Source: a virus
Length of the DNA stretch: 23,550 nt
Virus record (IMG/VR): IMGVR_UViG_3300025085_000193
Location: 1 to 23,550 of that record
Direction: 5' to 3' (one strand)
Shown: piece by piece, positions 1 through 23,550 of the stretch
Layout: the number at the start of each line of letters is the position of its first letter
How positions within the stretch are numbered: position 1 is the first letter of the stretch
The notes under the pieces: model-generated
Told to the model about the DNA's origin: nothing
Seen by the model: the letters and a program-made list of their open reading frames with translations, nothing else
Database searches by the model: none
Translations under genes and position numbers: made by a program

Positions 1-71
1 CACGCACTCCAAGTCCATACTGCTCTGTTACCAGCACTTGAGGGTGTTCTTGTTAAATATGTACTAGCCAT
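1..71 (-). CDS. LamG-type tail/fibre protein, 5' fragment (second copy)
   Basis: Only the first 23 codons are inside the window; the frame stays open to base 1. The ATG (71-69) shares one base with the TAA stop of the preceding IPT-domain gene (TAATG), as at other junctions here, and an AGGA lies a few codons upstream. The visible peptide starts MAST-L-RT-SS and continues into VWTWS. This matches the start of the 782-residue LamG/SPRY protein at 850-3198 (MAST-L-RT-SS, then a hydrophobic FTYSFW strand). It is therefore very likely a second copy of that gene, encoding a concanavalin-like, carbohydrate-binding virion protein. The function is inferred from the paralogue; the fragment alone shows no complete domain. 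Confidence 0.7.
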   Translation of the reverse strand, partial: MASTYLTRTPSSAGNRAVWTWSA

Positions 72-853
72 TATGTAAACATTCCTGAATTATCTATTGT
101 AGCAGGTGAAATTGTCATTGAAAAGTCTCGAGTTGCTGTTTGAGACTCTGCGTCAGTCGCTGTTAACGTGAAATTGTATGTTGTAGCAGTCGTTTGTGTT
201 CCTGATTCTGTACCCGTAATAGCAGCCGTATTCGATACGGTACTACCTAGCGATAATCCTGTGGGTAGTGTTCCTGCTGTTTTTGTAATCGTAATAGCAG
301 AGTCCGATGTTCCTGAAACATTAACACTGATTGTGTCTCCTTTTGCAAATGATCCTAGGCTTCCTGCCGCTGTGGTAAAACTCGGTGCGGTGGAAACGGT
401 TAAATCAGCATTAGTAGATCGAACTGCTTGACCATTATTGTTTTCAACACGAATAAAATAATTAGATGCAGGTACACTGACACTGGCCACTAGTGATGTG
501 GAACTACTATAACTTACTGTAGTCGCTTGTAAGATAGCGCCTGTACTAGAAATTAATTCAACAGTAGGAACAGAAACAAAGTTTGTTCCTGTGATTGTAA
601 TATTGGTAGCCGTACTAGGTATTGCTAATGTAGGGCTAATAGATGAATAAGTAGGAGCTTCTGTAGCTAAGACAACATCGGCAGGTAATCGTGCAGCAGG
701 GACCGTGCCACTGGCAAGATTGGAAGCGTTCATGTTTGATAGATCACTACCATCAACAGTTCCTGTAAGAGCCACTGTCGTATTAGAATCACCTAAGGTT
801 AGAGTATTCGAACTCCTCGGTAATATAGTATCTACTTTAATTTTACTGGTCAT
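71..853 (-). CDS. IPT/Ig-like tail fibre-associated protein (copy 2)
   Basis: 260 residues. The N-terminal ~60 residues have the look of phage fibre attachment segments (SGTVPAARLP near residue 50). Residues ~66-155 form an IPT/TIG-like beta-sandwich (pattern SPT-A-PSTATNITITGTNF, ending YFIRVEN). Residues ~158-250 resemble a putative Ig/cadherin-like domain (APSFTTAAG, TGTES, YNFTLTATDAESQTATRDFSM). It is alignable end to end with the 257-residue protein at 3200-3973, roughly half of positions being identical by eye, so the two are paralogues. Its ATG overlaps the TGA of the preceding 782-residue gene (ATGA), and its stop overlaps the next ATG. Likely a virion surface or fibre-chaperone component; the exact role is inferred. 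Confidence 0.8.
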   Translation of the reverse strand: MTSKIKVDTILPRSSNTLTLGDSNTTVALTGTVDGSDLSNMNASNLASGTVPAARLPADVVLATEAPTYSSISPTLAIPSTATNITITGTNFVSVPTVELISSTGAILQATTVSYSSSTSLVASVSVPASNYFIRVENNNGQAVRSTNADLTVSTAPSFTTAAGSLGSFAKGDTISVNVSGTSDSAITITKTAGTLPTGLSLGSTVSNTAAITGTESGTQTTATTYNFTLTATDAESQTATRDFSMTISPATIDNSGMFT

Positions 854-3198
854 CGTGCTGTTACCGGGATTCCTGAACTATCTACAAATGGGTTTTCAGC
901 AAATGCCATGTAAATGTATGTAACGCCATTTGAATTATTACTTGGGTGATTGACTCTCATTTTAAAACCATTAGACAAAAAGTCTATTAGTCCATTACCG
1001 TTGTTATATTCTGAAGCACTGTCATTAGCAGCTAATCTGTGGTCGGCAATATTAAAAGTATCTCTTTTATTATCATACATGGTCCACTCGCCTGTGGTTG
1101 ACATAGGCTTTGTCATAAAAAAAGACGGTCTAAAACCTGTGTATACAAACGTTCCATCAGTGGATCCGTTACCATTGTAGTAATTAAATTTTGAATATCC
1201 TATAACTTCTTTAAAACAATAACCGACATAGTTAATACCGTTTTGATTTCTTTGTGAACTACTAGATAACCTTAAAACTGTTGATGTTGGATCATTTTGC
1301 ATACCACTTCCCGGATCTTGTGCTGCAGTAGTATTTAATCTTACATAATAATCATAGTTAGTTAATCCCGCATGATAAACTTGAAAATGACTGGGTGAAT
1401 CATTTCTTGCTTTTGTGACAACCATTCTTGGAATTGCACCTAAACCATGTCCCACAGTTGCACCACCTGTAGCGTTTCCTGTATAAGTCACAACGCTAAA
1501 TCCTGCTGTAGTATTTACTGTTACTGAACTAGTAATTGAACCATCACTATTAGAAGCACTAGATCCACCTGCTCTCCAGTTCCAAGCAACCATACTGTTG
1601 CCATTACCATTTGCAGCATCACTTCTACCTACAGTGAAACCATCACTGTCAAAAGCACTAACACCGGGATAATTGTTTCCTCCGGGACCAGTGTCATATT
1701 CAGCACCTGATGTATTCGATTGTAATCTTAAATACACACCTCTGTTTGAGTCGCCTAACCAATGCCCTTCGCCATTACTACGAGATTTTAACCACACCCA
1801 GTCAGGTTGAAATCCGACACCTGTTATAGCGTGTCCATTAGAACCATTACCCGTGTAAAGAACGGTGTTCATGTAACTACCCCCTTTTCCTATAGGTTGA
1901 GTTAAAGACGAAGATAAGTTATTTGAACAAAGAGCTAAAAATCCTGTCGGCACGGAATAATAAAAATCCCCTTCTCCATTGGCATCACTGTTTCCTTGGG
2001 CGGTTACATTTCCGCCAAAAGTTCCATCTTGACCAAAATTTGAATTTAAGGTTGTATTATTACCTCTATTATAGACAAGTGGTAAATATGTGCCTGCGGG
2101 AATATCTGATTTTGCAACACCCTGTGTTGTGCCATTTTTGTAAAAAGTGATGGAAGTATTGGTTATATCTAAAGCAATGCCTATAATATCTCCAGCAGTC
2201 CAAGTAGCACCATAAGCTCCTTGTGATCCATTGTATCTAAAATTACCATCTGTTCTATATATAAGTTCTTTTAGATTATTAGGTGGTTCGTAAGCTTGTT
2301 GATTTACGTAAAAACCTACACCATCTGTCGATGATGTAGTGACATTATTTCCTGCTCTTAATTCAAAATACCATTTGCCTGCGCCTACTCCCAAAGTTCC
2401 ACCTGTAACTTCATTTTCATTCGGAGATGTAGATTCAAGATTTCCTTTAGTCAATGTAGACTTGTCGCTAACTAAAAGAGGATAATTGAATAAAGGATTA
2501 AGAGTACAATAAACATTTTCAGGACTATCTTTAACCTGATCTCCACTACCACTTTTTGTAAAATCATTATTATTACCTGAGAAATCTTCACCAAGATCAG
2601 AGGCATTTGTAAACTTTAAAAAATATCCATTAGTGCCATACGTAACTGAAGGATTAAGATTTGGTATCCACTGACCATTCGTTGATGTAGAACCAAAAGA
2701 AGAAGCCGCATAAGCATAGCCATCTGTAAAATGTAAGTGAGTCATGTAACCATCAAAGTATTCACTTGTGGTTCTTTGATAATATCCTATATCTTGTCTT
2801 TCATTTGTATTTATAAATTGTGCATTTGCATTTTGACTTGGATAATCACTTGTTGTTAAAGATGTGACCTGAGAGCCATTAACATATAAAATTGTTCTAT
2901 CTGATGCTGTACCATGTGTGGAGTCAAATTTTATTACAATATGATACCAAGCAGATGGATCTCTAAAAACCTGAGTTGTAACTAAATGAAAAATAGTTGA
3001 ACCACCAGCAGTGTGATACGCTTGAAATGTATCATTATCAACAAATCTTATATATAGAAACTTTGAAGTAGTAACATCGTTACTAATAATTCTTTGATAA
3101 GAACTCATATTACCACTTCTTTTTACCCAAAAAGAGTATGTAAATTTATTTATATCTGATCCTGATGATATTGTTCTTGCTAAAGATGTACTAGCCAT
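850..3198 (-). CDS. LamG/SPRY-domain tail fibre protein with C-terminal repeats
   Basis: 782 residues. Residues ~15-210 look like a concanavalin/LamG jelly roll (FTYSFWVKRSG, ILYVNGSQV, YFDGYMTHLHFTDG). Residues ~274-390 look like a SPRY domain (KWYFELRAG, GDIIGIALDITNTSITFYKNG, YLPLVYNRG). From ~440 to the end come about three divergent ~95-residue repeats with the pattern YTGNG...TGF.P..V..K...D..RG...F.S.GF, ending IYMAFAENPF and GIPVTAR, an ending I recall from marine phage tail proteins. These folds bind carbohydrate or protein, so a receptor-binding fibre or spike is the best call. The GAGG ribosome site (3209-3212) lies inside the last codons of the preceding gene. It forms a cassette with 3200-3973, and this cassette recurs downstream. 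Confidence 0.8.
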   Translation of the reverse strand: MASTSLARTISSGSDINKFTYSFWVKRSGNMSSYQRIISNDVTTSKFLYIRFVDNDTFQAYHTAGGSTIFHLVTTQVFRDPSAWYHIVIKFDSTHGTASDRTILYVNGSQVTSLTTSDYPSQNANAQFINTNERQDIGYYQRTTSEYFDGYMTHLHFTDGYAYAASSFGSTSTNGQWIPNLNPSVTYGTNGYFLKFTNASDLGEDFSGNNNDFTKSGSGDQVKDSPENVYCTLNPLFNYPLLVSDKSTLTKGNLESTSPNENEVTGGTLGVGAGKWYFELRAGNNVTTSSTDGVGFYVNQQAYEPPNNLKELIYRTDGNFRYNGSQGAYGATWTAGDIIGIALDITNTSITFYKNGTTQGVAKSDIPAGTYLPLVYNRGNNTTLNSNFGQDGTFGGNVTAQGNSDANGEGDFYYSVPTGFLALCSNNLSSSLTQPIGKGGSYMNTVLYTGNGSNGHAITGVGFQPDWVWLKSRSNGEGHWLGDSNRGVYLRLQSNTSGAEYDTGPGGNNYPGVSAFDSDGFTVGRSDAANGNGNSMVAWNWRAGGSSASNSDGSITSSVTVNTTAGFSVVTYTGNATGGATVGHGLGAIPRMVVTKARNDSPSHFQVYHAGLTNYDYYVRLNTTAAQDPGSGMQNDPTSTVLRLSSSSQRNQNGINYVGYCFKEVIGYSKFNYYNGNGSTDGTFVYTGFRPSFFMTKPMSTTGEWTMYDNKRDTFNIADHRLAANDSASEYNNGNGLIDFLSNGFKMRVNHPSNNSNGVTYIYMAFAENPFVDSSGIPVTAR

Positions 3199-3199
3199 T

Positions 3200-3973
3200 T
3201 TATATAAACCTCATTGACGTATTCATACCAACATTAATCGTCATAGAAAAAGCTCTGTCTGCAGTTTGTGACTCTTGATCTGTTGCTCTGATTGTAAAAT
3301 TATACGTTGTTGTTGCACTTGCACCACTTTCCGTACCCGCTAAATATACTGTATTTTGTGTGCTTCCTAAAGATAAACCGCCCGGAAATGTTCCTGTTGT
3401 TTTACTAAAATCAACAGCAGAGTCTGAACTTGCAGTGATCGCTACATTAATAGACGCACCACTATCAAAAGTTCCTAGTGTTCCCGCAGCCGTTGAGAAA
3501 CTTGGTGCTTGTGAAATAGTAAGATCTGCATTGGTTGAACGTGTAGCTAGTCCTGAATCATTTTCAATTCTTACATAGTAAGTTCCGTTTGTAGCAATAG
3601 TTGCATTTAGAGTAACGCTTGTAGCACTATTTAAGGTAACACTATTAGGTGTGATAATTGCACCTGCAGTGCTGACTAATTCAAAAATTGTTGTTGCTGT
3701 GAATCCTGTTCCTGTAACAGTAAAGTCAGTCGCTGTACTTGGTAATGCTGTAGTTGGTGATATACTTGTGTAAGTAGGTGATGCTCCTAATAAGGTAACG
3801 TTAGCAGATAATCTTGCATCATTAAGAGTACCTGTGCTTATATTAGATGCGTTCAGTCCTGTGAGGCCACTTCCATCTAATGTACCTACAACATTAATTG
3901 TATCGCCTGACTCACCGAATTGCACTGTTGTACCCGACTGAGGAATTATTTTATCTACTTCTATTTGTGACAT
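3200..3973 (-). CDS. IPT/Ig-like tail fibre-associated protein (copy 1)
   Basis: 257 residues, the paralogue of the protein at 71-853. The domains run in the same order: an N-terminal fibre segment (LTGLNASNISTGTL, residues ~38-52), an IPT/TIG-like sandwich (~66-152; SPTTALPSTATDFTVTGTGF, YYVRIEND) and an Ig/cadherin-like domain (~155-247; APSFSTAAGTLG, YNFTIRATDQESQTADRAFSM). The start ATG overlaps the TAA of the 149-residue gene upstream (TAATG). The last codons (MRFI then stop) contain the GAGG ribosome site of the following LamG/SPRY gene, so the two are translated as a unit. Probably a structural link between tail and receptor-binding protein. No catalytic motif is visible. Confidence 0.8.
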   Translation of the reverse strand: MSQIEVDKIIPQSGTTVQFGESGDTINVVGTLDGSGLTGLNASNISTGTLNDARLSANVTLLGASPTYTSISPTTALPSTATDFTVTGTGFTATTIFELVSTAGAIITPNSVTLNSATSVTLNATIATNGTYYVRIENDSGLATRSTNADLTISQAPSFSTAAGTLGTFDSGASINVAITASSDSAVDFSKTTGTFPGGLSLGSTQNTVYLAGTESGASATTTYNFTIRATDQESQTADRAFSMTINVGMNTSMRFI

Positions 3974-4422
3974 TAAATTATTACCAATGATCCTGTAACC
4001 GTAACGGTTCCTGTAACTGTGACAGGACCTGCGAGAACTCCTGATGCTATTGTTTGATCCTCTGTAATTGTTGTATCATGAGTACTGATAAAGTTTTGAG
4101 CTGTCATCGCAGCAGAGGGTGTACGAGATGCAGGAAGAGTACAGATCACTGTTTTCTCTCCTGCTGAAAAATCTACTAAGTTGTCTGAGTTTGATGATGA
4201 GATAACGGTTGTTCTTGATAATGTGTCAGGTGTAGCATCGGTGACTGTACCCACGCCTACCTCAAATTGTGCATCTAAAAAAATAGCATAAAAGGTTGTA
4301 TTGGTTGTTCCAATACCTGCAACAAAAGTTTCAAAACCTTCTACTGCCCCTGCTAAATTCAGGGTACCTGTTCCTGTTGTTGTACTAGTTTCTTTTACAC
4401 GATCATTAATACTAAAAGCCAT
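3973..4422 (-). CDS. Conserved tail fibre-associated protein
   Basis: 149 residues. The N-terminal half carries a pattern I recall from many phage tail proteins: DRVKETSTTTGTGTLNLAGA, then GFETFVAGIG, TTFYAIFLDAQFEVGVG, LSRTTVISSSNSD and FSAGEKTVICTLPASR. The C-terminal third (~110-149) is a short beta-rich stretch of VTVTGTVTV type that may form a beta-helix or trimerisation tip. The start ATG overlaps the stop of the repeat protein upstream, and its stop overlaps the start of the IPT gene (both TAATG), placing it in the fibre operon. Its role in the virion is inferred from family resemblance and position; no enzyme motif is present. Confidence 0.75.
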   Translation of the reverse strand: MAFSINDRVKETSTTTGTGTLNLAGAVEGFETFVAGIGTTNTTFYAIFLDAQFEVGVGTVTDATPDTLSRTTVISSSNSDNLVDFSAGEKTVICTLPASRTPSAAMTAQNFISTHDTTITEDQTIASGVLAGPVTVTGTVTVTGSLVII

Positions 4423-5414
4423 TATGCGACCTCTCTGTCATCGACATCTGTCCATACATTATTAGCAGAATCATCGACTTCTGTCCACGTATTAGTATTA
4501 CTGTCATCTACTGGAGTCCATGCATTATTGACTCCCGGTATCACAGGAGACCATGCGATAACACCGACACCTGTTTGACCAACGGATAAAGCTATTCCTG
4601 TAGGTGTAACTAAAGCGGAAGCTGTTGTGGTGACACTGCCTTGAGCAGAACTAATCGCTTGTCCTGTAACAGGGACATCGGCTCCTGCTTGACCTTCAGC
4701 CTGACCTTGGACAACGGATAATGCTATTCCTGTAGGTGTAACTAAAGCAGAACCAGTGACATTTTCATCACCAATTGCAGTGGTTAAACTTTGTCCTGTA
4801 ACGTCAACATCAACATTGGTAAAGGCAACAACATCTCCTTGAGCTGAGGTTAGTGCTATTCCTGTGACAGGAACGTTAGCGTCAGCGGAAACTGTTTCAT
4901 CACCGATTGCTGTAGATATAGCTTGTCCTGTAACAGAGACAACGGCAGATCCTGTAACAACAGAATCACCAATAGTTGTTTCAATAAGAGCTTCTGCTCC
5001 AACGACAATGGTCGTTTGACCACCTGCGGAAATAGAATAAGGACCAATTGCAGAGGATATTGACTCACCTGTTGGGAAAACCGTAATGTCAGGTAAGAAG
5101 ATAGTGACATCTCCTTCTGCTGGAGTTAGAGATTCACCTGTTGGGAAAGCAGTGACTCCTGCTCCAATTGCAACGGAACCTTGAGCACTAGATAAAACTT
5201 GTCCAGTAACTGTAACGTTAGCATCCGCACTAACGGTTTCGTTACCTATAGCTGTACTGAGAGATTGTCCTGTAAGTGTAACAACAGCACTACCAGATAT
5301 AGTAGCTGTTCCAACAGCAGTGTTTAATGCTTCTCCAGAAAGAACAACTCTAACGTTCTTACTACCTTGAGCACTAAACGAATCTTCAGCAAAGGTTGTA
5401 GTTCCAAAAAACAT
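4422..5414 (-). CDS. Repeat-rich beta structural protein
   Basis: 330 residues, almost all repeats. After a short N-terminal segment (FGTTTFAEDSFSAQG), about 12 copies of a 20-24 residue unit follow, pattern V-x-V-T-G-x-x-[LI]-[ST]-[ST]-A-x-G-x-x-x-[VI], spanning residues ~20-285. Four ~11-residue units with a conserved tryptophan then end the protein (AWSPV, AWTPVDDS, TWTEVDDS, VWTDVDDR). Such repeats suggest an elongated beta-solenoid or stacked beta-sandwich, fitting a fibre or virion surface filament. The start has only a weak upstream ribosome site, after a 43-bp gap from the 148-residue gene. The stop overlaps the next ATG. Near-identical DNA units (for example around 4591 and 4723) imply recent unit duplication or conversion. 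Confidence 0.75.
   Translation of the reverse strand: MFFGTTTFAEDSFSAQGSKNVRVVLSGEALNTAVGTATISGSAVVTLTGQSLSTAIGNETVSADANVTVTGQVLSSAQGSVAIGAGVTAFPTGESLTPAEGDVTIFLPDITVFPTGESISSAIGPYSISAGGQTTIVVGAEALIETTIGDSVVTGSAVVSVTGQAISTAIGDETVSADANVPVTGIALTSAQGDVVAFTNVDVDVTGQSLTTAIGDENVTGSALVTPTGIALSVVQGQAEGQAGADVPVTGQAISSAQGSVTTTASALVTPTGIALSVGQTGVGVIAWSPVIPGVNNAWTPVDDSNTNTWTEVDDSANNVWTDVDDREVA
4426..4556 (-). repeat. Four 11-residue tryptophan repeats
   Basis: The C-terminus of the 330-residue protein consists of four units of about 33 nt. Each encodes W-[ST]-x-V followed in three cases by DD and a polar/Asn-rich spacer. The periodicity is visible on the plus strand as repeated GTCCA(T/C) and TCATC(T/G)AC words. 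Confidence 0.7.
4557..5360 (-). repeat. ~12 tandem ~66-nt coding repeats
   Basis: Repeated coding units of the 330-residue protein. Each encodes VTG-x2-L-S-x-A-x-G or a variant. Two units share an essentially identical stretch of more than 25 bases near 4591-4616 and 4723-4748, and GATTGCTGT/CTTGTCCTGTAAC-like words recur through the block, showing unit-level duplication. Confidence 0.75.
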
Positions 5415-5457
5415 AACTGTATCTTAGCCCAACTACAACAAAAGCTAAATGATTATA

Positions 5458-5904
5458 TTAAGATATTCTTAATATAGCGTTAGATGAATCTGCTGTTGGG
5501 AACTGAATTGTAAATGTACCTGATGTTGAAGTCTTCACTGCACCAAAATCTAAAACCATAACTGCTGCATTTGTATTAGTTGTTGCAGTAGTGTTTGCGT
5601 TATAGATAACGGCAGCTTGCGCTGAGATTGTTGCACTTGTAAAACTTAAATCACTGAAATCAATGAATGCTGTTGCACCAGATCCTGAGGCACCTGAATT
5701 TGTCAATGCTCCACCACCTGCAGCATAAGTACCTGAAGCACCTACTTCGTTACCTGTAATGTACGCAGTAGTAGTAGCACTAAGGGTTGCAGAGTCTGTA
5801 TACAAAGCAAGTTTAAAGGCGTCTCCACCAGATGATCGAAAATCGTGTTCGCCTTGTAATAGTTCTACTTTAAAACTATTGCAGACTGCTTGTGTAATGG
5901 CCAT
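5458..5904 (-). CDS. Conserved phage structural protein, unknown role
   Basis: 148 residues. It starts MAITQAVCNSFKVELLQGEHDF, continues with FKLALYTDSATL, then a Gly/Ala/Ser/Thr-rich middle (TYAAGGGALTNSG), a FIDFSDLSF strand and a C-terminal FTIQFP strand. This layout is one I recall in marine phage tail regions, without known function. An excellent ribosome site (AGGAGGT) lies about 8 nt before the ATG and overlaps the final Gly-Gly-Lys codons of the adaptor gene upstream. Composition (small residues, beta strands, no catalytic motif) and location between connector and fibre genes suggest a virion component. Confidence 0.7.
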   Translation of the reverse strand: MAITQAVCNSFKVELLQGEHDFRSSGGDAFKLALYTDSATLSATTTAYITGNEVGASGTYAAGGGALTNSGASGSGATAFIDFSDLSFTSATISAQAAVIYNANTTATTNTNAAVMVLDFGAVKTSTSGTFTIQFPTADSSNAILRIS

Positions 5905-5906
5905 CT

Positions 5907-6572
5907 TTACTTACCTCCTGGAGTCACTGATTGTAACGGCACACGCAGGACTCCGTCTGCGTATTCGTCTCTTCGTTTCCTGCCCATTTGGGTAACAGAT
6001 AAACCTTGTACAGCTTGACTGTACTTCTGATCGTATAATTGCACAAATGTAGGATTTTTCAAGTAGGAAAAGGCTTCAGCACATACACCATATATTAAAA
6101 TTTCAGGAGCATTTGTAGAAAGAAAAGTTGTGGTATTTGTGCTTGATAATCTATCGGGTGTTTTATTATACCAGAGTTCTACTGTATAGGCAGCATCTGG
6201 TGTAGGTGCAAATATAAGGGTATTCTGATCCCAGTTTGCATAATAAAATGGTTTTCCTGTGTTATTAATTCTATCTACATTATATTCGTCAATAAAAGTT
6301 GTATCTCTTTGTTCTGCCCAAGTACGATCTTTTGTTGTATTATCAACAATTTGAACACCTCTCTCTAAATCAAAATCATCAGGTAAGGTAATAAAAGGAC
6401 TGCCTATGGTAAAACTTGAAGTAGCAAATTTACGGAAAGCATCAAGATCAAGTTGTTTTTGTACTTTATTTTCAGTGTTAATTATAAATACATTAAGAAT
6501 AGCATCTGTTAAAACATCAGATCCTACCTCTGTATAGTTTCTAACATTGCTAAGAAGTTCAGTATAATTCAT
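5907..6572 (-). CDS. Head-tail adaptor-like protein (SU10-adaptor type)
   Basis: 221 residues. It begins MNYTELLSNVRNYTEVGSDVL, followed by a helix (ILNVFIINTENKVQKQLDL), then LPDDFDLERGVQI, FYYANWDQNTLIFAPTPD, YTVELWYNKTPDRLS and a C-terminal helical part (EILIYGVCAEAFSYLKNPTFVQLYDQKYSQAV). This helix-beta-helix pattern fits the family of phage adaptor proteins described for podovirus SU10, which sit below the portal ring. The ATG overlaps the stop of the zinc-ribbon gene (ATGA). A second connector-like protein is two genes upstream, so the vertex may use two different rings. The assignment rests on recalled family pattern, not on a search. Confidence 0.6.
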   Translation of the reverse strand: MNYTELLSNVRNYTEVGSDVLTDAILNVFIINTENKVQKQLDLDAFRKFATSSFTIGSPFITLPDDFDLERGVQIVDNTTKDRTWAEQRDTTFIDEYNVDRINNTGKPFYYANWDQNTLIFAPTPDAAYTVELWYNKTPDRLSSTNTTTFLSTNAPEILIYGVCAEAFSYLKNPTFVQLYDQKYSQAVQGLSVTQMGRKRRDEYADGVLRVPLQSVTPGGK

Positions 6573-6898
6573 GATATGCTCACAGTGACATTACCAACTT
6601 TAGCAGTAATTATCAACTTTTTGATTTCAGTAGAAGGCTGCATTCCATCAGATTCAAATATACTATCACCAGGTGCTCCGACAAATACTGTTACAGGTTC
6701 TTGTCTTGCTGGTCTTGGATCATGTAAAGCTACGGCATCTGCAGGATGATAAGGTGGATCTAGTTGTGGATGTTTAGGTTCAAAACATTCAGGACATGTA
6801 AATAAACCATTCCATTCTTGTCTTAGTTCAAGATATTTATATTGTTGACCACATCTATCGCAGATAGCTAGTGCAAATTTACCGTTTGCAAAAGTCAT
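6569..6898 (-). CDS. Small zinc-ribbon protein
   Basis: 109 residues. Two CxxC knuckles (C13/C16 in CDRCGQQY and C35/C38 in CPECFEPKHPQ) are spaced like a treble-clef or zinc-ribbon fold of ~30 residues. The rest is a proline-rich stretch (HPQLDPPYHPADAVALHDPRPARQEP) and a C-terminal beta segment (IKKLIITAKVGNVTVSIS). It lies exactly between two connector-like genes, with a 1-bp gap on one side and an ATGA overlap on the other. That suggests a role at the head-tail joint or as an assembly factor rather than in transcription. The function is unknown; zinc binding is inferred from the four cysteines. Confidence 0.7.
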   Translation of the reverse strand: MTFANGKFALAICDRCGQQYKYLELRQEWNGLFTCPECFEPKHPQLDPPYHPADAVALHDPRPARQEPVTVFVGAPGDSIFESDGMQPSTEIKKLIITAKVGNVTVSIS

Positions 6899-6899
6899 T

Positions 6900-7565
6900 T
6901 TACCCTACATAAAAGTCACGAGGCACAATGTGCACTGAAGTAGATTGACTATCTTCTGTTAATGCTCTTTGTAATTCTGCTTCGTATCTTCTTTCTAATT
7001 CTTGTGAACGTTCAGGAGCCACCTCTTGTGATGTGTAGTAGGCTAGTCCTGAAACTAAACAAGGTAAAAATCTGTAAGGAGCATCAGGAGTATTAGTGTA
7101 AACACCTGCATCTTCGATTCTTCCTACATAATAATAATTAATTTGTGTGTCAGTTGTATTAGGTGTTTGATATAATGTTATCGTAACATTTGATAAATTT
7201 CTTCTTACATAGTATTGACTAGGTGTACCTTGAGATGTTTTATTTGGAATATTTTCATACTCAGATCTAGAAATTTTAGTCATACTGGTATCAGTAGAAC
7301 CATTTCTAAATACAACCTCCAATACATCAGATGCATCAGTGGGTGCTGTGTAAGTGTCAGTCCCCGCAGTTAAATTTGTTGTGTTGTTTTTTACTTTCCA
7401 AAGGTGAATACCTCGGTTGCCCCATTCAGAGAAAAGTAAATTAAGATTATCTCTTGCTGCGGACAGTTGATATCCTGTGCGCACATCCATACCACAACGG
7501 GCATAGGCACGCTCAACAAGCCTATCAATACTTAAATCAAATGCTGTGGTTCCCGAGGTAGCCAT
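6900..7565 (-). CDS. P22 gp4-like tail accessory/head-completion protein
   Basis: 221 residues. The N-terminal helices (IDRLVERAYARCGMD, LSAARDNLNLLFSEWGNRG) lead to a beta part (LTAGTDTYTAPTDASDVLEVVFRNG, the ISRSEYENIPNKTSQGTPSQYYV linker, VTITLYQTPN). A terminal helical segment (FLPCLVSGLAYYTSQEVAPERSQELERRYEAELQRALTED) follows. This is the arrangement of the P22 gp4-type connector that docks under the portal and closes the packaged head. It supports a short-tailed virion together with the P22-type portal. The start ATG has no strong ribosome site and lies 3 nt after the stop of the Lys-rich mini-gene, so coupling is likely. Called from pattern memory; moderate certainty. Confidence 0.65.
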   Translation of the reverse strand: MATSGTTAFDLSIDRLVERAYARCGMDVRTGYQLSAARDNLNLLFSEWGNRGIHLWKVKNNTTNLTAGTDTYTAPTDASDVLEVVFRNGSTDTSMTKISRSEYENIPNKTSQGTPSQYYVRRNLSNVTITLYQTPNTTDTQINYYYVGRIEDAGVYTNTPDAPYRFLPCLVSGLAYYTSQEVAPERSQELERRYEAELQRALTEDSQSTSVHIVPRDFYVG

Positions 7566-15609: not shown

Positions 15610-16029
15610 TTATAGTATTGTTAGTATGTCCTCTGGATTATCCACTGTGCCGAGTATCTCGTCATCATTGAGTAATCTTACTTCCCCACCTTCAATTTTA
15701 AGTCTAGATCCTGCGTATCTGCCAAACACAACCCAATCACCTTGTTTACACCAAGGACCATTAGGAAACTTTTCTTTATCTTGATATGCATCTGCACCGA
15801 CTGCTAAAACCATAGCAACAGACGCTGTTAATTGTGAGTCTTCTAAAGTCTTATCCGTTAAAATAACTCCACCTTTAGTTTTTTCTTTTGCTTTAAAAGG
15901 TAAAACTAAAATTCTCCAACCAACAGGTTGTGGAAGTTTTTCTAATTCTTTTTTATCTTCTGCTACGCCCTGTGAAGGGTTTGCCATTTTTTTCTTTATG
16001 TCCTCAGGGACATATAAAGTCTTAGTCAT
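15610..16029 (-). CDS. GroES-like co-chaperonin (Cpn10/gp31 type)
   Basis: 139 residues, longer than bacterial GroES (~95) because of a ~35-residue N-terminal extension. The core (~36-135) shows the Cpn10 signature: PVGWRILVLPFKAKEKTKGG, VILTDKTLEDSQLTASVAMV, LAVGADAYQDKEKFPNGPWC, then GDWVVFGRYAGSRLKIEGGE and LLNDDEILG. The mobile-loop area (KTKGGVILTDKT) carries the IL-type residues expected to contact GroEL. No GroEL is in view, so it likely pairs with the host chaperonin to fold the capsid protein, as T4 gp31 does. Ribosome site AGGAG, 8-bp overlap with the upstream 63-residue gene, and the scaffold gene immediately downstream fit a capsid-folding role. Confidence 0.88.
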   Translation of the reverse strand: MTKTLYVPEDIKKKMANPSQGVAEDKKELEKLPQPVGWRILVLPFKAKEKTKGGVILTDKTLEDSQLTASVAMVLAVGADAYQDKEKFPNGPWCKQGDWVVFGRYAGSRLKIEGGEVRLLNDDEILGTVDNPEDILTIL

Positions 16030-16213
16030 CTATTTTCTCCTCTTGATCCAGCAGGCGAGAAATTTCCTGTTGGCATATGTCAAGCATATGTAACTTTCCT
16101 TGAATATACTTGTAATCTTCAAAGTTTTCAACCCCTTGTGTCAAATGTTCATGAAGTTGTTCTTTGAGTGTTTTTAGTTCTTTTTGATAATTATGAATTA
16201 CAAAGATGCTCAT
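16022..16213 (-). CDS. Small helical protein of unknown function
   Basis: 63 residues, predicted to be almost wholly helical (ELKTLKEQLHEHLTQGVENF, DYKYIQGKLHMLDICQQEIS, RLLDQEE). Short proteins with a YKYIQG-type helix are found, as I recall, in many marine phages between head genes, without assigned function. The ATG overlaps the methyltransferase stop (ATGA), and its end overlaps GroES by 8 bp, so it is part of one translational chain. A coiled-coil dimer acting in head assembly or as a regulator is possible; nothing more specific can be supported. Confidence 0.7.
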   Translation of the reverse strand: MSIFVIHNYQKELKTLKEQLHEHLTQGVENFEDYKYIQGKLHMLDICQQEISRLLDQEEKIDD

Positions 16214-16833
16214 ACGTAAGCATTAACTCCTGGTATTCTTTTTTCAAAAACTTTATTTTGTCCATCTTTAGCACAATGCCATGTTTGTTCATGACCTTGA
16301 TTAACTCCATAATTATTCCTTTGCATTTTACCTAAGCCTGATTTTACTGCTTCAGCTACTGAATTAAGAGCATAGTCATCACCAACCATAACACCCGTTT
16401 GTTTTAGTTTAGGCCACCAATTGATAATATCATCTTCGACAGCGTCATATTCATGTGCACCGTCAACCATAATATAATCAACAGATTCGTCTTTAAATTG
16501 ATTTAAAATTTCTTCTGAATCCGATCTACCTTGACAAGGTATAACCATATTTCTTCCAATAAAAAATTGTAAATTATCTTTGAATATTGATGAGAAGTCT
16601 TTTGGTAGTTTTATATTAGCATGTTCTGTTGAACCTTCAAAAGTATCAACGCAATATATTTTTACATCTTCTTTTCCCGCATTGTAAAGAGCGGTTGCAA
16701 GATAGTGTGTCGATCTACCTAGAAAAGATCCAATTTCTACAATGACACCATCATCGGCTATTTGATCTACAACGATGTCGTAAGTTTCTGAGTAATTGAA
16801 CCACCCAGGTATCGTAAAATAGGTGTGTTTCAT
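16210..16833 (-). CDS. Class I SAM-dependent methyltransferase (Methyltransf_24-like)
   Basis: 207 residues, about the minimum for a class I methyltransferase domain. Motif I is VEIGSFLGRST (32-42), the acidic residue ending strand 2 is D63 in YCVDTFEGS, and a later motif is IMVDGAHEYDAVEDDI (121-136) followed by GVMVGDDY (147-154). This layout matches the Methyltransf_24 group, often fused to or near sugar-modifying enzymes. There is no target-recognition domain, so the substrate is unknown; sugars, small molecules or proteins are all possible. Upstream AAGGAT is a distant ribosome site (12 nt). It lies in the head operon next to GroES, which is unusual for a DNA methylase. Confidence 0.82.
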   Translation of the reverse strand: MKHTYFTIPGWFNYSETYDIVVDQIADDGVIVEIGSFLGRSTHYLATALYNAGKEDVKIYCVDTFEGSTEHANIKLPKDFSSIFKDNLQFFIGRNMVIPCQGRSDSEEILNQFKDESVDYIMVDGAHEYDAVEDDIINWWPKLKQTGVMVGDDYALNSVAEAVKSGLGKMQRNNYGVNQGHEQTWHCAKDGQNKVFEKRIPGVNAYV

Positions 16834-17426: not shown

Positions 17427-19881
17427 TTTGACCTCTATTTGGTTGATTTTGACGTTGTATTGCTACATCTGCACGTAAATTAGCTAAATCATAGTCTTTT
17501 TGTAATTTTTTAGCGTCAAAAGCTTGCTTGTAATCAAATTGATTCTCTTTTAATGCTTGATTTTCACCTTTTAGTTGAGCTTGCATCTCCATTTCAGACT
17601 GTTTTAAAGCTAACTCTTGTTGTTTGAGTAAAACAAGAGGATCCATGTTTTGATCCTGCATAGATTCCTGTTCTTCCGTAACCATTTGTTCTGTAATTTT
17701 TACAATTTCATTATCTATTGCAGTTGCTCTTTGAGCTTGTAGTGCTTGTAAAGCCTCTGGTGGTACTTGTTCACCAAATTGTTGACGTAATTTTTCTGCT
17801 TCTTCTACCATTGCTTGATCAACAGTTTGTGTAGCAAGTAAAGAAGTATGTTGCATGATGTGAGAAACTAAATTCATAACTGCCATTGGATTAGCTTTCA
17901 CTAAAACAGATGACATAAATGTTCTGTGTGCTTTAATGTGAAGTTCATGATTTTGTTGTGGAAAAGCTTGTAAAGGAGCACCACGTAAAACAACACTATG
18001 TTCCATAGCTGGATCTTGTGGTTGAGGTTGTGGTGGTATTGGAAGTATTTGTTCAATATCTTTAATACCTAAAGCTATATACATTCTTCTGTAAGCTTCT
18101 CGTAAATTATGCATCTGAGGGTTACTCTGGGCAAGTTGTAATTGGTTTTGTGCTAACGTCACACGTTGTGACATGGAGAAAATATTTGGATCTGATACAG
18201 GTAAGATATCTATATTGTCATCAAAATCGAGAGCCTTAATTTGTCTAGGTCCACCTTGAACATTAAAAGGATATACAGGTGGAAGAGCTACTTTAAAAAT
18301 TTTAGCTAATAACTTAAATTCTTTCTTTTGAGCAAAGTGTAATCTTTTGTGAACAGCAGACATAACTTTTGTGCCACGTTCCATAAGAGCCATGGTGGTA
18401 CCCACAGGAGTTTGTGATTTACCTATTTCAGATGTTTGCATATCTGCAACGGTTGCAAATTGTTTTGCAGCATCTACACAGAAGCCTAGTAGTTGCATAA
18501 GAACTTGGTCAGGACCTTTGTAAGGTAAAGGCATTAATGCTTCACGAATAATTCCATTAGGTGCATCAACATCTCTAAACTCACCAGGTTGTAATGGTTG
18601 ATCATCATCACGTATTCTTAAACCACGTGACTTATAACCTGCTGGTAGATTAGATAAAGTACCTGCATCTAATAGTTGTCTTAATGCTGTTGTGGCAGTT
18701 CTTGTCAAACCACCAATCATGTGGATTAAACCAAAGCCATAAAAACCTAAACCCGGTAAAAACTTGTAGTGAACAAAATATTCATTTTTCCTTTTTAGTG
18801 GATCTCCTTCAACATAATTTCTATATATAGATAAAACTTTATTTGACGATCTATCTATAGTAACAACATAAGGTAGCTTAATTCCACTAGGTTCGCCATC
18901 CTTTGGGTTTAAATCTTCAAAACCTTCTAAATCTAAATCAACATGCATTTCATATAATTCAGACATGTCATCCATTTGATAGCTGTTTGGATTTACACCA
19001 TCTATTCTATCCATTTTTTCTTGAAGACCTGACTCATCATCACCATCGTATGCTTGTAAATCTACGTCACGATAGAATCCAGAAACTTGTTTCTTTCTCA
19101 AATCGTTCATAGACATTTTTACAATTTGTGAAATTCGATCACAGCTGTCTAAGTCTGATGCTCCGTAAGGAACAATAATATCTTCTGCAGGAATAAACTT
19201 TGATGTAGCTCTACCTTGAACTTCATCATAATAAACTTTTTTAAATGCACTTCCTGATAAAGGTAATTGAAATAACAATTGATCCATTTCAGGATTATAA
19301 TCTTCCATGACATGAGTAATCTCATAATTCATGTATTCTTTTACACGTTCTGCTGCTAATTGAAGTTGTTCATTGTTTGCACCAACAACTTGAGTTCTAA
19401 CAGGACCATCACTAGGTAATAATTCAACATAAGCCATCGCTTGAAATTGTGTAACAGCTTGAGCTAAGACAGGATGATTAACGCTTGCAGCACCTCTGAA
19501 TGGTCTGGTGCGTTCTTCATATTTGAAACCTAATAAATCTAAACCTTTGGTATAAGCAGTTTCCCAATCTTCTCTAGAGGATCTGTCATTTTCGACTTTA
19601 TCCATAAGGTCATTAGAAAGAGATTGTAAATACCCTTCATCTAAAATTTCTGCTAAGTTTGAATTGAATCCTGATTCTTCTGGTATGTCTACATCACCAA
19701 CTATCGCTGAACCATCTTCAATTATTTCTACACTATCTTCTACTTGATCAGGAGATAGATTCACCTCTATTTGACTGCCTACTTCTTCAATATCAATTTT
19801 ATCATCACCTCCAGGACCAATTGCTTTTGCATCGTTAATGTCGCTTGGATCACGTGATGAGCTGTTAAATTTATCTACCAT
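17419..19881 (-). CDS. Portal protein (P22 portal-like)
   Basis: 820 residues, fitting the large portals of P22-type phages (725 in P22). After an acidic, probably disordered N-terminus (1-80), the core shows SREDWETAYTKGLDLLGFKY, PFRGAASVNHPVLAQAVTQF, LPLSGSAFKKVYYDEVQGRA, then FLPGLGFYGFGLIHMIGGLT and GLRIRDDDQPLQPGEFRDVD. The C-terminal ~150 residues form a Gln/Glu-rich helical barrel-like region (EEQESMQDQN, QELALKQSEMEMQAQLKGEN). It forms the dodecameric DNA gate at the capsid vertex. The ATG overlaps the end of the large upstream gene by 11 bp without a visible ribosome site, so coupling is likely. No terminase gene is in the window. Confidence 0.88.
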   Translation of the reverse strand: MVDKFNSSSRDPSDINDAKAIGPGGDDKIDIEEVGSQIEVNLSPDQVEDSVEIIEDGSAIVGDVDIPEESGFNSNLAEILDEGYLQSLSNDLMDKVENDRSSREDWETAYTKGLDLLGFKYEERTRPFRGAASVNHPVLAQAVTQFQAMAYVELLPSDGPVRTQVVGANNEQLQLAAERVKEYMNYEITHVMEDYNPEMDQLLFQLPLSGSAFKKVYYDEVQGRATSKFIPAEDIIVPYGASDLDSCDRISQIVKMSMNDLRKKQVSGFYRDVDLQAYDGDDESGLQEKMDRIDGVNPNSYQMDDMSELYEMHVDLDLEGFEDLNPKDGEPSGIKLPYVVTIDRSSNKVLSIYRNYVEGDPLKRKNEYFVHYKFLPGLGFYGFGLIHMIGGLTRTATTALRQLLDAGTLSNLPAGYKSRGLRIRDDDQPLQPGEFRDVDAPNGIIREALMPLPYKGPDQVLMQLLGFCVDAAKQFATVADMQTSEIGKSQTPVGTTMALMERGTKVMSAVHKRLHFAQKKEFKLLAKIFKVALPPVYPFNVQGGPRQIKALDFDDNIDILPVSDPNIFSMSQRVTLAQNQLQLAQSNPQMHNLREAYRRMYIALGIKDIEQILPIPPQPQPQDPAMEHSVVLRGAPLQAFPQQNHELHIKAHRTFMSSVLVKANPMAVMNLVSHIMQHTSLLATQTVDQAMVEEAEKLRQQFGEQVPPEALQALQAQRATAIDNEIVKITEQMVTEEQESMQDQNMDPLVLLKQQELALKQSEMEMQAQLKGENQALKENQFDYKQAFDAKKLQKDYDLANLRADVAIQRQNQPNRGQND

Positions 19882-22800
19882 ATTCGCCGTATATATCTGT
19901 TATAGAAACTAAACTATCTTTATCAATAGTTCCACCTGATTTTTTCTTAAATAAGTACATTGGTTCTTCCAATTTGGAAGGATCAAATGATATAGTATAC
20001 ATATCAATTGCGCTAGGGTTATATTCCATAATCTTTATAAGTGCATCATCTGCGCTTTCACCTTCTTTTAAAGGTATCATACGATATCCTACATCCGTGG
20101 CATCTCCACGACCTTCTACAAGGTAGTAATCCATCATTTGACCTGGTGCAATTTCTCTAGTCAAAACTATTGTACCTGGTTCATTTACTCCACTTGCAAT
20201 TCTAGTTATTTCCTCATCATAATATTTGTCCCTATCCGCATCTGATATTTCTTTTCTAGTTTCTATTTGTTTTAATATCTGAAACTCTCCGTCTGGATTT
20301 TTATTAAGAAATGTCACACCACGATTAGTTTTACTTGAATCAATAATCTTTTCTACATTTAATGTACCATCATACTTTTTTGCAATGTTCTTTAATTGTT
20401 GAACACCTACTTTGTCATACAAGTTTTGAAACTTCTTTTTTGCTTCATCCGAACTCTTACCCCAACGAGGGTTAGCACCTATATCAGCAGGCATAATAGC
20501 CACTCGATCGATATCTTTTTGTTTTGCTGCTTTGATTGTTGATTTAATTAATAGATCTACATAGTCTGCTTGTTTATTAAAAGGTATGGGTGGAAATGAT
20601 TCTAATGTTTTCATATTATAACCACTTGGTAGATAAGTATCTGTCTCTCCAATTCGTTGTAATTCCTCTCGGTTGCTTGTAGAGGGTACTTTAAAATCTT
20701 TAAGCTTTTCTTGATAGTTTGAACTTCGATTCATGGACATCAAGTCATCAAGAATTTTTGTTTGTTCTTGTGCTAAATCAAAAATCTTAGTCTTGTAAGC
20801 AGGGTCTGTGTATTGCTCAACGTTTGCCATACTTAGTTTGTTAATATCATCTTGTATTGCATTTAGGTTGCGTGTTTTTTCTGGAATTAATTCTTTCGCA
20901 ACAATGTTAGGGAAAGGTTGAATTAAATTATCTTGTGCTAAGTCATTTAATAGACTCTCTGGATATTTTTGATCAAACTGTCTTAATTTATTTGTGGCAT
21001 AGTCAACGTTTCCGGGACCCAAGTTTCGAGCCTGTTCTACTTGATTAACTAGATCGGCACGTTGTCTTTTCAGTGCATTAACCATTGCAAACAAGCGTTC
21101 TTGTTCTTTACGAACTTCGGTTAGCATATCAGTTTGCATTTCTTGAATGACTGCCACTTTTTGATTGTCAGCATTCTTGTATGTTCCTACACGAGTGAAA
21201 CCTAAAACATTCGGTTCTTGATAGTGTCCTGAATTAACAAAAACTTTTTCTTGTCCGGGTAGTTGAGGGACGTTAACTACAACTTCAAAATACTCATCCG
21301 CAGCTTCATCAATTTTAGCACTACCTGCACCTTTATGTCTTGCTCTTCCTTGATCTGCATCAAAGTCTAATAAATCTCTTCCTGTGCTACCCGGCACAAA
21401 AGTTTCAGCAGGGTCTCGTCGAGTGGATTCTTTCACACGCACTTCTAAATTACCTAAGGGTGACATGTCATAGAGACTTTCTAAGTCTTGTTTTGTAATT
21501 TTTTTGTTAGGAAAAAACTTTTCAGTATCTTCTAGATATTGCAAAATTCCTGTATCCATCATTTCTGCTTCAGGAACTTTTCTTCCTTTAATTAAAAATT
21601 CTCTCCAACCTTGAGGTGTTGAAGCCTTCGGTGCATTTTGACTATTGAGTTGATCGAGAAAAAATGATTTGAAAAAGAAATCTTGTCTTCCTGCAGGCAA
21701 CGGTGCAATCTCCTGTGAACCTGTTGGTGCCGGTATAGGATCTCTTGCTTCTTCTATTTGTTTCACATTAGATGGTGTTGCCATCGCTTTGGGTTTTTTG
21801 AAAACTTTAAAGAGATTCAATAAATTTGCTGCTTGTAAATTACCTGAATCTACGGCTTCTTGAAAATAGTCTTGGTCTACTGCAGGGTCAGGTGAGAATT
21901 GTTGTTGATTAATATTTTGCAACGGATCACCGCCCATGGCCATACGTACAGGTTTGACTTCTCCACCTTTTTTCATTTTTAAGTCATCAATTATTTCTAC
22001 AGGTATATCTTCATCAATAAAACCTGAAGCAAGATTAGTGGGTCCACCTTTAGGTTCAACTTTTTTAGGTTTGTAATTTTTTTGTTTTGAGATTTGTTTA
22101 AAATGATTTTCTAAACTTTCTATTAAACTTATTAAGCCTGGTTGTTCTTCAATACCTACTTTTATAAATTCATCACCCTCTAAACCCTCTGGTAATATTT
22201 TTCCATATGCTACCGTTCCTAATTTTTTTGCACGCTTATCTAATAAATTTAATGCTTCTTGTTGAATAGGTGTTAATTTACCACCCTGTTCATTTGCAGC
22301 GTTTATAATTTCTTTAAATGAACTTTCAATTTCTTGATGAGATAAAATATTTGTTCTTGCAAAAGAAAGTCTCGATGAACCTTTTAGTCCACCAACTCCT
22401 TGAAATTGTCCTTTAACAGTTCGAAGAGGAAAATTATGTGATATTTGAAGTTTAAAATCATTTACATTTAAGTTTTTAAACTGCTTTGGAAAACGTTTTT
22501 TATAATCATTAAACATTTCTTTAATGATTTTGTCTCCCTGTATTCTCTGTTTATCTAAAACTTTTATTGTATCTAAATCTTCTGCAAACTGTTTTTTCCA
22601 ATCAATGCCTTTCATAAAATCAATAAACTTTTCTCCAAAAAGTTTTGGGTCAACATCTGGAGATAAGCCTAAATTTTCAGGTTCAAGACTTCTAAATAAA
22701 CCGTCAAATAAAACAGCTTCCTCTCTATCATCACCCATCATTTTTGCAGTTTTAGTCAACCCTAACTCTTTTTTGTTTTTATTCATTATAGTTGTAAGAC

Positions 22801-23550
22801 TTCTAAGTCTGTCACCTGGAGTAGAAAACTTAGAAAATATTATTTTTTCAGTAAGTTCTGGATTTTTTTTTCTTGCTTGATCAATACTATCTCGAGTAAA
22901 TCCCTCTTCAAATAGTTCCTTAAATGTTTTTTTGCCTTTTAAATTTTCTAAATATTTCCCTGCTTCTATAAAATTAGCTTGTCTAGGAATAAGACTTTGT
23001 AATTCTTCAATAGGAAATTCAAGTTGTGTATAATCAAAATTTGTATCAGGACTTTGTCTTAATAATTCATTAGTTCTATTTTTATCTAAACCATATTTAT
23101 TTGGACCTTGGTTTGGTTTTAATTTTCCTGATTTAATGTCTTTAATTGTTTTATTTAATTTTTTAAAATCATATGGACTAAATTTTCTAAAACTTACAGA
23201 TTTTGGTCCCATATCAGCTTCTCTCATAACACCTGCAGGTGTAAATCCTCCACCTGTAATAGTCAAAATTTCTTGTGTCTCAACAGGGAATTGTTTTTGT
23301 AATTCTGGATCTTGAGCCATCGTTTTTAAATTAGTTTTTCCAAACTTCTTTACTCCTAGGGTTGCTAATTTTTTAAAAACGGCTGGCAGTAATGCAATAT
23401 CGGTTATATCAATTATACCCATCGCAACACCCATTCGCTCATTGTCGGGTAGGTCATAGTAATCAATACCTGCACGAATATTTTGTGATCCTTTGACTAA
23501 ATCACTATACATAAATCCAGGTATCTTTCCTAATGCTTGGCTCGGGGTCA
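19871..23550 (-). CDS. Very large phage protein with polyvalent-protein-like C-terminal domain (5' partial)
   Basis: At least 1,213 residues from the first ATG at 23512; the frame stays open to 23550, so the start is outside. It has a basic, helical N-terminal half, a spacer with MKKGGEVKPVRMAMGG (~511) and a second domain (~700-1213). The latter shows EVVVNVPQLPGQEKVF, then VAVIQEMQTDML (~787), PPIPFNKQADYVDLLIK (~970) and FQNLYDKVGVQQLKNIAKKY (~1025). The order EMQ-D..., PF...lK...A...D-ova-P, YDK resembles a domain I recall in phage large polyvalent proteins, which often carry enzymatic toxins or injected virion enzymes. It lies directly upstream of the portal, typical of internal or injected virion proteins. 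Function unknown. Confidence 0.72.
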   Translation of the reverse strand, partial: TPSQALGKIPGFMYSDLVKGSQNIRAGIDYYDLPDNERMGVAMGIIDITDIALLPAVFKKLATLGVKKFGKTNLKTMAQDPELQKQFPVETQEILTITGGGFTPAGVMREADMGPKSVSFRKFSPYDFKKLNKTIKDIKSGKLKPNQGPNKYGLDKNRTNELLRQSPDTNFDYTQLEFPIEELQSLIPRQANFIEAGKYLENLKGKKTFKELFEEGFTRDSIDQARKKNPELTEKIIFSKFSTPGDRLRSLTTIMNKNKKELGLTKTAKMMGDDREEAVLFDGLFRSLEPENLGLSPDVDPKLFGEKFIDFMKGIDWKKQFAEDLDTIKVLDKQRIQGDKIIKEMFNDYKKRFPKQFKNLNVNDFKLQISHNFPLRTVKGQFQGVGGLKGSSRLSFARTNILSHQEIESSFKEIINAANEQGGKLTPIQQEALNLLDKRAKKLGTVAYGKILPEGLEGDEFIKVGIEEQPGLISLIESLENHFKQISKQKNYKPKKVEPKGGPTNLASGFIDEDIPVEIIDDLKMKKGGEVKPVRMAMGGDPLQNINQQQFSPDPAVDQDYFQEAVDSGNLQAANLLNLFKVFKKPKAMATPSNVKQIEEARDPIPAPTGSQEIAPLPAGRQDFFFKSFFLDQLNSQNAPKASTPQGWREFLIKGRKVPEAEMMDTGILQYLEDTEKFFPNKKITKQDLESLYDMSPLGNLEVRVKESTRRDPAETFVPGSTGRDLLDFDADQGRARHKGAGSAKIDEAADEYFEVVVNVPQLPGQEKVFVNSGHYQEPNVLGFTRVGTYKNADNQKVAVIQEMQTDMLTEVRKEQERLFAMVNALKRQRADLVNQVEQARNLGPGNVDYATNKLRQFDQKYPESLLNDLAQDNLIQPFPNIVAKELIPEKTRNLNAIQDDINKLSMANVEQYTDPAYKTKIFDLAQEQTKILDDLMSMNRSSNYQEKLKDFKVPSTSNREELQRIGETDTYLPSGYNMKTLESFPPIPFNKQADYVDLLIKSTIKAAKQKDIDRVAIMPADIGANPRWGKSSDEAKKKFQNLYDKVGVQQLKNIAKKYDGTLNVEKIIDSSKTNRGVTFLNKNPDGEFQILKQIETRKEISDADRDKYYDEEITRIASGVNEPGTIVLTREIAPGQMMDYYLVEGRGDATDVGYRMIPLKEGESADDALIKIMEYNPSAIDMYTISFDPSKLEEPMYLFKKKSGGTIDKDSLVSITDIYGEYGR

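Follow-up and report, generated by a model that had tools for sequence, protein, structure and literature searches.

Consecutive copies of a putative receptor-binding gene set in a virus raise the question of what the repetition is for: separate fibres mounted side by side, parts of a single fibre, or one copy in use and another in reserve. We examined such a locus in a window that is a whole 23,550-base IMG/VR record, which ends at base 1. Four cassette genes, IPT1, L1, IPT2, and LamG2, follow one another in tight succession on the minus strand at the window end (Table 1), positioned as the first-pass annotation had them. In our reading, which we regard as probable, a tandem receptor-binding cassette array of an HTVC023P-like podovirus begins here, with fixed adaptors, recombining heads, and fibres that are mounted together. 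The LamG2 reading frame begins with an ATG at 71-69 and is open to base 1. IPT1 is entered through a 1-nt overlap and is separated from L1 by a gap of 1 nt, L1 and IPT2 overlap by 4 nt, and IPT2 and LamG2 overlap by 1 nt. An earlier remark that junction types repeat is thus loosely true; short overlaps recur, but they measure 1, 4, and 1 nt and are accompanied by one 1-nt gap.

Table 1. Features of the cassette region of the window.
Feature	Position	Strand	Description
IPT1	3200-3973	-	257 aa, adaptor protein of cassette 1
L1	850-3198	-	782 aa, head of cassette 1; LamG-like, SPRY, and DUF7483 parts in one chain
L1, LamG/pentraxin-like jelly-roll part	2509-3198	-	aa 1-230; fold match to 4dqa
L1, SPRY/B30.2 domain	1936-2511	-	about aa 230-421; PF00622 and DDX1 fold match
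L1, DUF7483 domain	889-1884	-	aa 439-770; PF24299
IPT2	71-853	-	260 aa, adaptor of cassette 2, paralog of IPT1
LamG2	1-71	-	head gene of cassette 2, first 23 codons; cut by the record end
Joint at LamG2 start	45-77	-	33 nt, 88% identical to 3172-3204
Joint at L1 start	3172-3204	-	counterpart of 45-77; also seen in the family-wide identity profile
149-aa conserved gene	3973-4422	-	directly precedes the array; upstream array edge in relatives

The remainder of the window indicates what kind of phage this is. The portal protein has 49-50% identity to its counterparts in the Pelagibacter phages HTVC023P and HTVC027P, and the genes for GroES, the capsid, an adaptor, and the pre-array protein come in the HTVC023P order. 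Homologous portal and shared structural gene order point to an HTVC023P-type podovirus, with SAR11/Pelagibacter as the probable host. The two named genomes are 60.9 and 57.6 kb long, so by gene order the window is a fragment of a podovirus of 57-61 kb, probably less than half of its genome, and not the small phage for which it had been taken. The 149-aa pre-array gene is 71-96% identical in related loci L002, L003, L004, and L082-L087 (a suffix to these numbers gives the cassette), and its position is homologous to that of HTVC023P gp58. Positions 4422-5414 encode a 330-aa repeat protein (VTGQALSTAIGDETV...), which has 306 aa in some relatives, and the number of repeats may vary among them; in L004, proteins resembling it are found downstream of the array, not upstream. 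Elsewhere in the window are two SU10-type adaptor proteins (5907-6572 and 6900-7565) with a small zinc-ribbon-like protein between them (6569-6898), genes (15610-16833) that lie between portal and capsid and encode a GroES-like co-chaperonin and a Methyltransf_24/TylF methyltransferase, and a 1213-aa protein adjoining the portal gene that has no PHROGs or Pfam match (19871-23512).

The tandem duplication of an adaptor plus a receptor-binding-like cassette, proposed from the letters alone, is real. Residues 2-246 of IPT1 and 3-248 of IPT2 are 53% identical (E 1e-82 in a single comparison), so the two proteins do align almost end to end as had been claimed, and a second LamG start follows IPT2. 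In IPT1, an N-terminal motif (about aa 1-60) precedes two Ig-like domains, one IPT/TIG-like (about 66-153) and one He_PIG (165-247); IPT2 has the same architecture, a ~60-residue N-terminal stretch and then two Ig-like domains. The Pfam He_PIG model (PF05345, cut-off 24 bits) was passed by IPT1 with 30.8 and by IPT2 with 33.4 bits, and TIG/IPT (PF01833) remained below its cut-off of 20.9 bits in both (18.4 and 18.7 bits). We use "IPT" as a label only; the TIG/IPT region folds Ig-like in the AlphaFold model of IPT1, which has a pLDDT of 88.8 and strands spanning residues 67-247.

The head protein L1 combines three parts. Its LamG part has a ConA-like fold according to structure matches to 4dqa, a putative carbohydrate-binding protein (Z 19.7, 193 residues, rmsd 2.6), and to pentraxins; Pfam Laminin_G_3 gave no call in L1 and was called in the third head of L002 (52.5 bits). 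The SPRY domain scored 42 bits with PF00622 (cut-off 26.3) and has sequence and fold matches to the SPRY domains of DDX1 (Z 17.4), RanBP10, and ASH2L, and DUF7483 (PF24299) scored 376 bits over 330 positions (cut-off 27). The match list of the fold search was filled by LamG and SPRY domains, so that the DUF7483 fold was barely covered; the solved relatives among the matches listed comprise SPRY and generic Ig/lectin folds, with no phage-fibre precedent. LamG-SPRY and DUF7483 are encoded by two adjacent genes in most relatives; fusions occur in the window, L084, and two of the three L002 cassettes. Some DUF7483 genes of a second cassette type (L098, L131, and L120) encode about 490 aa, compared with about 345 aa. 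Cyanomyovirus Synechococcus phage S-B68 has six places that match L1, one of which is in a 4.3-kb structural gene, with two larger genes (5.7 and 7.3 kb) nearby, around baseplate genes. Judged by these matches, S-B68 appears to have the same kind of head in a different setting.

The truncated LamG2 protein begins MASTYLTRTPSSAGNRAVWTWSA, and L1 begins MASTSLARTISSGSDINKFTYSF. Among 195 LamG-gene starts, that of LamG2 is nearest to cassette 2 of L002, with 19 of 23 residues identical, as compared with only 11 of 23 for L1. The second LamG and DUF7483 pair of L002 matches L1 over its whole length (38% and 49% identity), and a resemblance confined to the first residues, which would have counted against the duplication, was not found in this relative. 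From L002, we infer that cassette 2 of the window has a DUF7483 part as well.

Relatives were collected by searching IMG/VR with each IPT protein, and the loci were scanned with IPT-domain, LamG-SPRY, and DUF7483 profiles; loci entered this sample by their similarity to the window IPT proteins, and its cassette counts are no census. The closest syntenic relative, L002, has neighbour genes 74-90% identical to those of the window and carries three complete cassettes at the same site. Three are also present in L004, at the syntenic site, and in L041, L042, and L043, and two in each of the isolates HTVC103P and HTVC104P. Twenty-two short-adaptor arrays are delimited by flanking sequence at both ends; one cassette is present in 3 of them, two in 14, and three in 5. 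The duplication had been called uncommon; with two or three cassettes in 19 of these 22 arrays, it is usual in this IPT-selected sample. Phages with a long fibre that ends in IPT domains, such as HTVC200P, whose fibre has a T7-type N-terminus, usually have one cassette. Bacterial genomes gave 20 hits, the five best of which (42-47% identity) are on short MAG contigs; contigs L158-L162 were assigned to Gammaproteobacteria, Rickettsiales, Campylobacterales, and Maricaulis, and these matches are probably binned phage contigs. As a metagenome contig, the record breaks off at base 1, and this is the one point in favor of an assembly artefact or of a chance likeness of common modules. However, given the strength of the IPT1/IPT2 match (E 1e-82) and the recurrence of this tandem order across dozens of independent contigs and in two isolate genomes, this explanation is refuted for the family and has a negligible probability overall.

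The duplication is old. Among the four-fold degenerate sites of conserved residues, the proportion that differs between IPT1 and IPT2 is 0.68, compared with a random expectation of 0.66; silent divergence between the copies, which the first-pass annotation had proposed to compare, is saturated. In a 25-row IPT tree, IPT1 falls with L082, L084, and L002_1 (91% identity to the L082 ortholog and 73% to that of L002_1), and IPT2 groups apart from it with its ortholog L002_2 (97/82; 66% identity). An AU test rejected a duplication after the split from L002 (p 3e-5) and likewise rejected a tree in which the copies within L002 form one clade (p 0.004). A topology forcing only IPT1 and IPT2 together was not rejected (p 0.195), but it left the 91% ortholog L082 out of account. 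A recent duplication is ruled out by the saturated silent sites together with the first of these tests. The adaptors of the window and L002 form one clade (100/100), apart from the L004-like adaptors of slots 1 and 2, and this separation suggests that arrays expanded independently in separate lineages.

The adaptors and the heads have different histories. We compared 113 non-redundant complete cassettes pairwise. In the 107 pairs whose IPT proteins are at least 85% identical, the median identity is 45% for LamG-SPRY and 48% for DUF7483, as compared with 36% and 42-43%, respectively, in cassettes with unrelated adaptors. Loci L041 and L042, for example, share a 96% identical backbone and IPT proteins of 95, 83, and 87% identity, with LamG-SPRY at 46, 51, and 45% and DUF7483 at 45, 56, and 50%. 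Similarity of adaptors and heads is weakly correlated (Mantel r 0.27 for LamG-SPRY and 0.14 for DUF7483). Some heads are more alike than their own adaptors, as in L131_2 and L120_1 (IPT 75%, LamG-SPRY 92%) and in L041_2 and L107_1 (IPT 76%, LamG-SPRY 84%, DUF7483 54%). In other pairs one head unit was kept and the other replaced: L098_2 and L094_1 have LamG-SPRY at 42% and DUF7483 at 77%, and L098_1 and L097_1 have one unit at 96% and the other at 63%. Because heads can be closer than the adjoining adaptors, or one unit can be kept while its partner is replaced, we conclude that heads are exchanged.

The borders of the exchanged parts were located with a profile of codon-aligned nucleotide identity over cassette pairs with adaptors at least 85% identical. 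Identity is about 81-95% through the IPT gene. In LamG-SPRY it is 70% over the first 10 codons, then about 43-62%, and 73-80% over the last 40 codons; in DUF7483 it is 78% over the first 10 codons, then mostly 49-71%, and 76% over the last 20 codons. This profile describes two variable blocks, each with short conserved joints at its borders. Between the cassette copies of the window, where DNA identity is otherwise low, the 33-nt joint over both LamG starts (88%) is the only strong DNA match. Array size varies from one to three, and heads are replaced, sometimes one unit at a time, between the joints; no recombination event itself was seen directly. With regard to a diversity-generating retroelement, which would have a reverse transcriptase and template/variable repeats, head divergence spans the entire heads instead of one short C-terminal stretch, and no reverse transcriptase was recognised among the scanned proteins of this incomplete genome.

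Heads might alternatively diverge by fast, selected evolution of receptor-binding surfaces, with no exchange at all. The low head identity everywhere and the weak correlation with the adaptors would both fit such a process, but it does not account for heads that are closer than the adjoining adaptor, for pairs with one unit at 84-96% and the other at 54-63%, or for several recombinants whose breakpoints fall in the joints; as the sole explanation we consider it quite improbable. Fast divergence or strong diversifying selection may add to the head differences, and a mixture with exchange is likely.

Position in the array is a further trait in which adaptors and heads differ. On the IPT tree, array position requires 17 changes, compared with 28.1 ± 2.0 after shuffling, and on the LamG-SPRY and DUF7483 trees 25 changes each, compared with 28.2 ± 2.0; the adaptors keep to their array position, and the heads are at best weakly bound to it. 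We also considered concerted evolution among the adaptors of one genome and did not see it (60 changes vs 59.4 shuffled). LamG-SPRY has a slight likeness within genomes (55 changes vs 59.4 ± 1.4), and some copying of it inside genomes is conceivable.

The first-pass annotation had also suggested that one copy might be an archive for switching, that is, a silent or alternative cassette brought into use by inversion or gene conversion. In the window, both IPT copies and the complete head are intact, lie on one strand, and have their own starts. No long inverted repeats flank the cassettes; the only inverted repeat found in the window (20 nt, 85%) is away from the cassette borders, and no recombinase or site-specific invertase was recognised among the proteins scanned from this incomplete genome. 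The window has no oppositely oriented alternative copy between inverted repeats of the kind that marks invertible tail-fibre cassettes (Mu G or P1 C type). Gene conversion between the window copies is not indicated either, as no high-identity tract extends beyond 33 nt, and within-genome head identity reaches at most 47% (LamG-SPRY) or 54% (DUF7483).

A part of a cassette lies on the opposite strand in only one of 142 related loci, that of HTVC200P (MH598801.1, 9600-12330). Here, one DUF7483 gene sits in reverse orientation between two LamG genes. The LamG-end/DUF7483-start joints carry a 58-nt inverted repeat (95%), and of a second IPT protein, since lost, the final codons remain (ending ...SLTSSFGATGGGQFN). 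These features, together with the slight within-genome similarity of LamG-SPRY, are what can be said for an archive. However, the second IPT gene of HTVC200P is mostly gone, and because the 3' end of the upstream LamG gene is missing, the locus reads as a rearrangement scar; an inversion switch was considered for it and set aside in favor of the decayed scar of a second cassette. Taken with the intact, same-strand copies of the window, we judge a switched archive to be very unlikely.

The N-termini of the adaptors bear on how the cassettes of an array would be used. Most adaptors begin with the same motif, MSxIEVDKIIPQSGT...GDTI, which recurs on other fibre-like genes beside the arrays. At the same place in the genome, gp59-gp62 of HTVC023P and genes of phage 023Pt_psg01 bear it too; these have glycine-rich ends in place of IPT domains. 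In HTVC023P (1242-6938), gp59-gp62 are four tandem paralogous fibre-like genes where the window has its IPT cassettes. The simplest reading is that the adaptor N-terminus is a common mounting end, presumably for the tail, that accepts interchangeable working ends.

The two cassettes could instead supply the subunits of one composite fibre, assembled serially or into a heteromer at a single tail site, and so add length or valency in place of a second specificity. Adaptors inherited by position are what would be expected of non-interchangeable parts, and the third adaptor of arrays is often a longer, distinct type of about 390-400 aa. Against this, closely related backbones have either two or three cassettes (L108 or L036 vs L041 and L042) and L084 a single one, every cassette comes with a complete head, and the docking motif is common to most adaptors. 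A composite fibre is therefore unlikely, and we continue with separately mounted fibres as the preferred reading.

Phages with several receptor-binding proteins are known from the branched tail-spike complex TSP1-TSP4 of Ackermannviridae (PMC11414711), which likewise has conserved N-terminal mounts, variable C-terminal heads, and conserved 5' ends that aid exchange. Shared N-terminal parts, as in that complex, are present among the IPT proteins and the neighbouring fibre genes, in which they would serve for docking. The Ackermannviridae spikes, however, are single chains linked by gp10-like XD domains, whereas adaptor and head are separate genes in the window and the head consists of two separately exchanged units; a Pfam scan found no XD domain in the IPT proteins. 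In the exchange of T-even distal tail fibres, as outlined in PMC11414711, short conserved motifs flank the swapped receptor-binding part as they do here, but one locus per phage and other protein families are involved. Hypervariable host-recognition islands of marine and SAR11 phages (PMC3909814, PMC10504331), including a Skadi region with an uncharacterised gene and a lectin-domain gene (PMC10504331), share the theme and the hosts of the window array. In the passages of these two papers that were consulted, the islands are recognised by low read recruitment, and the repeated IPT, LamG-SPRY, and DUF7483 cassette, its position-bound adaptors, and its joints do not appear.

Closer counterparts exist among pelagiphages. 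The complete genomes of HTVC103P and HTVC104P carry two IPT-LamG-DUF7483 cassettes whose genes are annotated as hypothetical; they differ from the window in having two unrelated genes between the cassettes and other adaptor N-termini, and they belong to a different phage group with HMO-2011-like structural genes (PMC8528129). HTVC023P gp59-gp62 and 023Pt_psg01 (URG13112-URG13114) share the group, the site, the motif, and the tandem fibre-like genes, but are single-gene units with a Gly_rich_2 end, whereas the window has IPT domains and separate lectin-like heads. The main text of the paper on HTVC023P-type phages (PMC9599517) does not contain the terms "tail fiber", "receptor", or "host recognition". 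In the open literature searched, from which subscription papers are mostly absent, we found no description of the IPT-LamG-DUF7483 cassette or of the pattern of fixed adaptors with two exchanged head units, and no paper on DUF7483 or on a SPRY domain in a pelagiphage. Several fibres in one phage and host-recognition islands in marine phages both have precedents; this cassette array appears to be undescribed.

Taken together, a cassette consists of a constant adaptor, with a putative docking N-terminus and two Ig-like domains, and a LamG-SPRY/DUF7483 head. Each adaptor may bind the virion through the shared N-terminus and hold its own lectin-like head, and the copies may be made and mounted together. 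Co-infecting phages could then recombine at the conserved joints, and the heads so renewed would alter or broaden the surface glycans that are recognised. A wider host range from two fibres, as first proposed, is plausible; the copies could also differ in expression level, or one could be non-functional. We tentatively extend this model, with somewhat less than even confidence, to marine podoviruses, mainly of SAR11, that would share a standardised multi-slot array with nearly invariant, position-bound adaptors and two-unit heads whose units pass independently from phage to phage at joints, a combinatorial set of fibres giving 1 to 3 parallel specificities (up to 4 with the Gly-rich units).

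SAR11 are the most abundant bacteria of the ocean, and host recognition by their phages is poorly known; most of the fibre genes are annotated as encoding hypothetical proteins. Should adaptors be fixed and heads be exchangeable, head sequences would be a record of host recognition that can be read from metagenomes, and the conserved joints would predict where recombination occurs. HTVC103P and HTVC104P, compared with single-cassette relatives, make it testable whether more cassettes mean more hosts. Exchange of heads on fixed mounts could let abundant ocean viruses follow their changing hosts.
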